The notes beneath the pieces are model-generated. The model was not told the DNA's origin. It did not search any database and worked only from the letters and a program-made list of their open reading frames with translations. From Oscillospiraceae bacterium (GTDB lineage Bacteria > Bacillota > Clostridia > Oscillospirales > Ruminococcaceae), in NCBI GenBank assembly GCA_024699425.1, contig JAILPP010000031.1, forward strand, positions 1 to 34,804: a stretch of DNA of 34,804 nucleotides. The letters are read 5' to 3'. Made by a program: the position numbers and the translations under genes. This document shows positions 8,490 through 25,658 of the stretch, one piece after another (within the stretch, counting starts at the first letter, position 1; every line of letters begins with the position of its first letter).

Positions 8490-8654
8490 TAGACTTCCTC
8501 GGAAACTGGAGAAGTGTCAGATTCCGCAGGATATTTTGTGCCTGACAAAGAGACTCGACCGCAGGAATACTGTATGTATTGCAAGGGAGAGGCTCAAAGT
8601 CAGGCGCAAAAGAGACAAGGAAGATGATACTTCGGAAGTTTCCGAGGAAGTCTA
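8490..8654. repeat. ~165-bp long imperfect palindrome/hairpin element
   Basis: TAGACTTCCTCGGAAACT (8490-8507) is the perfect reverse complement of AGTTTCCGAGGAAGTCTA (8637-8654); nested GAAGTGTCA/TGATACTTC (8511-8519/8625-8633) and TTTTGTGCCTGAC/GTCAGGCGCAAAA (8534-8546/8599-8611). Confidence 0.85.
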
Positions 8655-8666
8655 ATATTGAAGCTG

Positions 8667-8807
8667 TAAATGAGCATTCTTAGCAAAATATACAAGGTGG
8701 CGGGCAGGTATTGGGGGGCTACTCGCCCCCCAAACCCCCCTCGGCAGGGCGGTGACAGCCCTGCACCCGCATCGTTTTTGTATATTTTGACAGTCTGCGC
8801 TCATTTA
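8667..8807. repeat. ~141-bp element with terminal inverted repeats and two internal hairpin arms (copy A)
   Basis: TAAATGAGC (8667-8675)/GCTCATTTA (8799-8807); CAAAATATACAA (8684-8695)/TTGTATATTTTG (8778-8789); GCGGG/CCCGC; arms TTGGGGGGC-TACTC-GCCCCCCAA (8711-8733) and GCAGGGC-GGTGACA-GCCCTGC (8744-8764). Confidence 0.85.
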
Positions 8808-8827
8808 TAGATTGGAGGTGAATCATT

Positions 8828-25470: not shown

Positions 25471-25628
25471 GACGGCGGGTTGGTATAGGGGGGCTACTCG
25501 CCCTCCACCCCCTCGGCATAAGCAGACAGCCAGCGAGGAATGAGCGCCGCTGGTCGCTTATACAGAGTAGGGCGATGACCGCCCTGCACCCGCAACGCTG
25601 TATATTTTGACAGTCAGCGCTCATTTAT
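25471..25628. repeat. Second copy (copy B) of the 8667-8807 intergenic element, left-truncated and carrying an extra hairpin arm
   Basis: Shares GGCGGG..GGTAT.GGGGGGCTACTCGCCC.CCA..CCCCTCGGC, AGGGCG.TGAC.GCCCTGCACCCGCA.CG and GTATATTTTGACAGTC.GCGCTCATTTAT with 8698-8808; contains the extra palindrome 25518-25561. Confidence 0.88.
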
Positions 25629-25658
25629 GGTTTATAGCAAACAGAAAGGAGATTTTCC

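Follow-up and report, generated by a model that had tools for sequence, protein, structure and literature searches.

A MITE family of a Ruminococcaceae bacterium, very probably moved by an IS701-like insertion sequence, carries a hairpin module with predicted counterparts on plasmids of other phyla

In the window analysed here, a stretch of 34,804 nucleotides from an Oscillospiraceae bacterium, a 147-bp non-coding element lies between ruvB and glmM, and we hold with high confidence that it is one copy of a MITE in which the ends of an IS701-like insertion sequence surround an exchangeable hairpin module. Modular MITEs are a known kind of element; the unexpected part is that the module is common to several phyla and replicon types. 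As to how the present arrangement came about, the transposase of the IS701-like element, acting in trans, would have cut and inserted the MITE copies, and the insertion in the window would have landed in the ruvB-glmM interval, immediately before the ribosome-binding site of glmM. The hairpin module may have been kept since a folded single strand is useful, or at least harmless, to the element.

The element has 12-bp terminal inverted repeats (CTRTAAATGAGC/GCTCATTTATAG) and is flanked by a decayed 7-bp target duplication, ATTGAAG/ATTGGAG, with six of the seven positions identical (Table 1). An earlier, sequence-only reading of this DNA had described a 141-bp palindromic element at 8667-8807. 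That element is real, and the repeats named for it (the nested termini, the GCGGG/CCCGC pair, and both hairpin arms with their loops) are all present, but each boundary had been placed 3 bp short, because the terminal repeat, CTGTAAATGAGC/GCTCATTTATAG, reaches that much further out on either side. The fold of the element is far beyond chance, at -74.2 kcal/mol compared with -47.5 +/- 4.0 for 200 dinucleotide shuffles, none of which was as low. Within the window copy, neither an intrinsic terminator nor a promoter was found. The second copy, which had been reported at about 25471-25628, also exists, with its span shifted slightly; it has lost the left terminal repeat and gained an extra hairpin, and it folds less well (z -2.1) for these two reasons. 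Between ruvB and the MITE lies a different repeat, element B, which the sequence-only reading had missed; it has ends TAGACTTCCTCGGAAACT/AGTTTCCGAGGAAGTCTA and a possible TA duplication, and it recurs at no fewer than 30 places in the genome, many of them at contig ends.

Table 1. Coordinates of the repeats and of their parts in the window (dot, no strand assigned)
Feature	Position	Strand	Basis
Element B, a different repeat of 165 bp, not part of the MITE	8490..8654	.	
Target duplication, left copy, ATTGAAG	8657..8663	.	
MITE copy 1, 147 bp; hairpin module read 5' to 3' on +	8664..8810	+	terminal repeats, flanks
Left terminal inverted repeat, CTGTAAATGAGC	8664..8675	+	
Left subterminal repeat, CAAAATATACAA, related to AAAATGCACAAAA, a subterminal motif of the insertion sequence	8684..8695	+	
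GCGGG, 5' arm of the stem closing the hairpin module, pairs with CCCGC at 8766-8770	8700..8704	+	fold
Hairpin 2, TTGGGGGGC-TACTC-GCCCCCCAA, 9-bp arm	8711..8733	+	fold, covariation
Conserved linker, ACCCCCCTCG	8734..8743	+	
Hairpin 3, GCAGGGC-GGTGACA-GCCCTGC, 7-bp arm	8744..8764	+	fold, covariation
Conserved tail ACCCGC, of which CCCGC pairs with GCGGG	8765..8770	+	fold, conservation
Right subterminal repeat, TTGTATATTTTG on +	8778..8789	-	
Right terminal inverted repeat, GCTCATTTATAG on +	8799..8810	-	
Target duplication, right copy, ATTGGAG, overlapping part of the glmM ribosome-binding site	8811..8817	.	
MITE copy 2, without its left terminal repeat; the right one, GCTCATTTATGG, at 25619-25630	25473..25630	+	
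Optional extra hairpin module of copy 2, ~53 bp, inserted at the base of hairpin 3	about 25517..25569	+	

The host genome is a draft of 1.75 Mb in 152 contigs, estimated to be 66% complete, in which repeats are badly assembled. A BLAST search of this draft gave at least 48 matches to the element, at no fewer than about 40 places, which bears out the dispersed repeat that had been proposed on the strength of two copies. The terminal repeat alone was matched 70 times at one mismatch or less, against two matches for the reversed control pattern, and these matches take in copies whose interiors are too divergent for the BLAST search. Full elements range from 52 to 256 bp and contain no transposase gene; the copies are nearly all intergenic, occur in both orientations, and often lie less than 100 bp from a gene. 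Among 34 inward-facing pairs of terminal repeats, the identity between the two flanks was 0.57 at a length of 7 bp (null mean 0.31, maximum 0.42), and at all other lengths from 2 to 12 it equalled the background. Perfect 7-bp duplications surround seven of these pairs (ATCTGTG, CCAATAA, CTAAGAG, TCAGGAG, CATAATA, TTTGTAA and CATGTAA; null mean 0.24, maximum 2), and nine further pairs, the window copy included, agree at six of the seven positions. Empty orthologous sites, which had been named beforehand as evidence for a mobile element, were seen in sister species: the joined flanks of locus L006 align across the junction at 90.5% over 358 columns in G011 and at 84% in G006, those of L043 align likewise in G027 (77%), and in G011 only 15 bp, with no insert, separate the ruvB stop from the glmM start.

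The features by which a MITE is recognised, namely terminal inverted repeats, a target duplication of fixed length, dispersed copies devoid of a transposase, and empty sites, were thus all found, and an autonomous partner with the same ends was found as well, in sister species and not in the draft itself. The sequence-only reading had left the choice open between a MITE-like, a REP-like and a repeated RNA element, and it is the first of these that the terminal repeats, the 7-bp duplication, the empty sites and the insertion sequence with the same ends bear out. That the whole element is REP- or BIME-like and was moved by a single-strand (Y1, RAYT) transposase is highly improbable. Such repeats resemble ours as intergenic, GC-rich hairpins in many copies, but the Ruminococcus element inserts with terminal inverted repeats and exact 7-bp target duplications, which contradict that route, and its ends match those of a DDE insertion sequence; to our knowledge, Y1 elements make no such duplications. 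Taken in the strict sense, a REP-like nature is unsupported, the ends and the target duplications being those of a DDE-type element. In the open-access literature we found no paper on such repeats in Ruminococcus.

A search with the terminal repeat in sister genomes of the genus Ruminococcus turned up insertion sequences with the same ends. An intact one in Ruminococcus sp. UBA3665 (G008) is 1342 bp long, has perfect 12-bp ends (CTATAAATGAGC), and encodes a DDE transposase of 393 residues (DDE_Tnp_1, E 2.5e-16), for which the best NCBIfam model is IS701 (E 1.2e-38), at a score of 133 against the curated cut-off of 150; the transposase of a more distant relative, from another family of the order, scores 158 and so exceeds that cut-off. 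The MITE and the insertion sequence have in common their 12-bp ends, the subterminal CAAAATGCACAAAA, and duplications of 7 bp; at the right end, the MITE copy L032 reads CTATAAATGAGC-ATGAACTGTCAAAATGCACAAAAGCG and the insertion sequence CTATAAATGAGC-ATTTCAACAATGGATTTGACAAAATGCACGAAAAGG, the subterminal motif being common to both. In Ruminococcus sp. SIG535 (G017) the insertion sequence had been collapsed by the assembler, and the duplications were read by matching the flanks of left-end contigs to those of right-end contigs. This gave the 7-bp duplications CTCACAT and TAAAGAA, one of 8 bp (TTACACTT) and one of 6 bp (TATGAA), where the control for flank matching gave no matches of 6-9 bp.

The usual target duplication of IS701 elements is 4 bp. 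In both the insertion sequence (apart from the single 6- and 8-bp matches) and the MITE copies it is 7 bp instead, and in this, as in the sub-threshold score of the intact transposase, the presumed mover differs from the IS701 family, which it resembles, along with IS4-like DDE elements, in its DDE_Tnp_1 domain and its best model. Such a transposase was not found in this incomplete draft genome, and its part in moving the MITE is therefore inferred from the ends and from the duplication length. On that footing, the mover of the MITE is very probably the IS701-like insertion sequence of the sister Ruminococcus genomes.

The interior of the element follows a recurring plan. The core consists of hairpin 2, in the form TTAGGAGGGGC-TNCTC-GCCCCTCCTAA or TTGGGGGGC-TACTC-GCCCCCCAA, followed by the linker ACCnCCCTC, hairpin 3 (GGCAGGGCGG-TGA-CCGCCCTGC and variants of it) and the tail ACCCGC. 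Many copies have a further hairpin, GTCGGC..GCCGAC, before the core, in others the core is closed by GCGGG/CCCGC, and several contain the optional hairpin and an insert in which one hairpin sits within another. The interior stems are maintained by paired changes: across 24 sequences, both sides had changed in 13 of 20 pairs, compared with 2 to 7 in slid controls, and the covariation score was 0.255, compared with 0.101 after shuffling. These figures favour the structure as given, because the alignment was structured by eye, but the margin over the slid versions is still large. At the gathering score, Rfam had nothing for the window, for ten module loci or for ten plasmid loci, and at a lax threshold the element drew chance matches only. 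Either of two outcomes had been named in advance as speaking against a mobile structured repeat, a mere pair of copies devoid of covariation or a known Rfam family, and neither occurred, there being dozens of copies with covarying stems and no match in Rfam.

Two variants of the interior deserve mention. A nested insert, GTCCCCTCTGTCCT..GGACATCTCCCCAC, is present in hairpin 2 of L033, L043 and L062 in this genome, of L105 in G027 and of L258 in G023, and is thereby common to several species and to MITEs with different ends. Near positions 1418-1478 of L002 (G000:C132), a related and distinct hairpin pair, GGGTGCAGGGGGAATCATTCCCCCTGC..AAGGGGCGGAGCCCCTTG, adjoins a MITE copy and scores weakly with both of the covariance models described below.

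The same hairpin module occurs between a second set of transposon ends. Sister Ruminococcus species contain a MITE family with ends CAATGCYAACAACTTA and a target duplication of 10 bp (loci L251, L254, L256, L257, L260, L264, L270 and L273), and in G013, G027 and G029 the core, with the optional hairpin inserted at the same point in it, lies between these ends. The ends were matched 88, 20 and 13 times in the three genomes, respectively, with no match for the control, and the flanks reach an identity of 0.78 at 10 bp against 0.31 for the null, with 6 of 17 duplications perfect. In G027 the core is found within both sets of ends (L105, L254), and in G005 and in most copies of G023 it is found with no recognisable ends. 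Since the same interior lies within two unrelated sets of ends, it has been exchanged between transposon ends. A search for an autonomous partner of the CAATGCYAACAACTTA ends gave a single candidate, in G017, which carries no transposase. G006 has 51 matches of the CAATGCYAACAACTTA ends, and in the copies that we read the core is mostly replaced by another GC-rich hairpin pair; this type of pair within CAATGCYAACAACTTA ends was seen at L207, L256, L261 and L273. A further observation concerns what seems to be one and the same intergenic site, before a gene for an FAD-type oxidoreductase, at which the module has opposite orientations in L027 (this genome, with MITE ends) and in L195 (G005, without ends).

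Beyond Ruminococcus, a BLAST search of plasmids with the element matched Streptomyces (82-87% over ~58 bp) and Stutzerimonas, and the latter match led to about a dozen plasmids of Pseudomonas and Stutzerimonas (among them L322, L331-L333, L337-L341). Here a single module, in one orientation, follows a RepA or RepA-like gene at a distance of ~250-430 bp downstream, in all cases with an annotated or inferable gene of this kind; L338 is the exception, no rep gene being annotated nearby. The rep-like products are mostly annotated as hypothetical and have no confident Pfam match, and several of them are preceded by RepB. On the Streptomyces plasmids (L319-L321, L330, L334) the module is set in extended non-coding DNA, with parA or HTH genes close by. 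The hairpin set of the Pseudomonas and Streptomyces plasmids is conserved, has no name and no Rfam family, and matches the Ruminococcus module.

Two covariance models, one built on Ruminococcus (R1) and the other solely from nine plasmid copies (R2), and hence built separately, match each other's predicted hairpins with E-values down to 1e-8, although such scores are inflated by GC-rich palindromes and the E-values are to be taken as rough. With R1, the plasmid loci reach 27-51 bits. In the opposite direction, R2 finds the module in each of the 27 Ruminococcus loci that were tested, at best with 48 bits (E 3e-8) and in L005 and L022 at only E 0.007, and gave no matches in a control of 106 kb of related loci that lack the module. 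R2 also matches the Streptomyces copies (best E 4e-6) and the IMG/VR contigs L323, L324 and L328 (E 1e-9 to 3e-7). In L324 a possible rep gene precedes the module by 370 bp. L328 resembles filamentous phages in its zot-type gene and its phage integrase, and between the zot-type gene and the neighbouring one it has two copies of the module (L328:2391-2544). When the queries were shuffled so as to keep the two-hairpin architecture and the composition, or the stems in addition, the real score was never reached on L319-L322 and L337 (0/300 to 0/600 each), the scores of L319-L322 being partly the product of selection, because these loci were found by similarity to the query; L340 and L341 match weakly and do not score above the shuffles. 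Under strict filters, R1 gave none at E <= 1e-5 in 398 other genomes of the phylum, and within the order it gave weak matches in eight other genomes, the best in G254. No matches were found among phage records by BLAST, among viral contigs with the exact core pattern, or in E. coli genomes searched with the Pseudomonas element.

What maintains the module can be read in several ways. It may be that the paired changes reflect mutation and not function, template switching having perfected the palindromes, and that the module spreads only through the transposon ends. This would apply to any DNA palindrome, and it agrees with the highly variable interiors, with hairpins lying inside hairpins, and with internal deletions down to the 52-bp element. 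We regard it as possible and yet doubtful, because three parts outside the stems, namely the loop TNCTC, linker ACCC..CTC and tail ACCCG, are conserved across phyla, and because the module occurs between either of two sets of MITE ends and also without ends.

An alternative is that the module works as RNA in transcripts from adjacent genes, where it would be a terminator, an attenuator or a signal for processing or stability; a role of this kind has been proposed for BOX and other MITEs. The strong fold, the covariation and the predominantly intergenic copies close to genes fit this proposal, and MITE transcripts are reported to affect co-transcribed genes (PMC10969869, PMC3049150), which counts in its favour. 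However, between co-directional genes of this genome 12 copies read with the genes and 19 against them, the window copy has no intrinsic-terminator pattern, and no Rfam family matches. The lack of an orientation preference favours a DNA element over an RNA whose role depends on the strand. We therefore consider an RNA signal quite unlikely, and the repeated RNA element offered in the sequence-only reading is not favoured.

A third possibility, a single-strand DNA signal in replication, is suggested by where the module lies, namely after rep genes and in the contig of a filamentous phage. Tentatively, and with a probability that we would put on the low side, the module could be a folded single-stranded DNA signal that starts DNA synthesis (a single-strand origin or priming site), derived from a plasmid or a single-strand phage and now carried by MITEs. 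Its position after a RepB/RepA-like gene pair or a rep gene on the Pseudomonas and Stutzerimonas plasmids, its presence near a possible rep gene in L324, its double occurrence in L328 and its presence on Streptomyces plasmids are consistent with such a role, as are the reciprocal matches of the two models, the empty 106-kb control, the failure of the shuffles on L319-L322 and L337, and the absence of strand bias relative to genes in Ruminococcus. Against it stand the missing annotation of an adjacent rep gene at L338, the weak matches of L340 and L341, the partial selection of L319-L322, and the fact that a function for the plasmid copies is likewise only putative.

The complementary-strand origin of phage G4 and the region downstream of repA in R100 hold known primase-type sites of three hairpins. 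Sites of this type (the G4 origin and the G-site of IncFII plasmids) resemble the module in having three hairpins and, on plasmids, in lying downstream of repA, but neither R1 nor R2 matches the phage G4 or the R100 region, which also weighs against priming as such, and a G4-type priming site was rejected on this sequence comparison. The replication proposal has a fuller version, in which the interior would be a mobile single-strand DNA signal (a priming or single-strand origin hairpin set) that other phyla have in plasmid origins and in a filamentous phage; in Ruminococcus, unrelated transposon ends would have captured it repeatedly, and dozens of copies would now lie in the chromosome of each genome. 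This version is speculative and, taken as a whole, unlikely.

Among known systems, MITEs derived from insertion sequences (PMC10969869) are the closest in kind, being likewise short, non-coding and strongly folded into hairpins, with ends shared with an insertion sequence, target duplications of fixed length and many intergenic copies. The Ruminococcus element differs from them in that its interior is GC-rich and not AT-rich, and in that this interior is common to MITEs with other ends and to plasmids of other phyla. In its design it is comparable to the BOX elements of Streptococcus, which are modular composite repeats with optional extra modules and with one interior shared by two sets of ends; in S. 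suis, the same boxB modules lie inside two families, one with end modules A/C and the other with E/F (PMC3049150). The comparison is one of design only, and unlike BOX, the Ruminococcus sets of ends have their own duplications of 7 and 10 bp, an insertion-sequence partner is identified for one of the sets, and the interior is also found beyond the genus.

This accounts for the structured repeat that is most abundant in the genome and names its likely mover, so that annotators can record the copies as insertions of a transposon instead of RNA genes. The module itself is well defined, with conserved loops and linkers. It occurs between two sets of transposon ends, and further afield at the replication regions of plasmids from two other phyla and in the contig of a filamentous phage. 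If those on plasmids are replication signals, the function of such GC-rich hairpin sets would be directly testable on small plasmids, and the transposons of Ruminococcus would be dispersing a replication signal over the chromosome.
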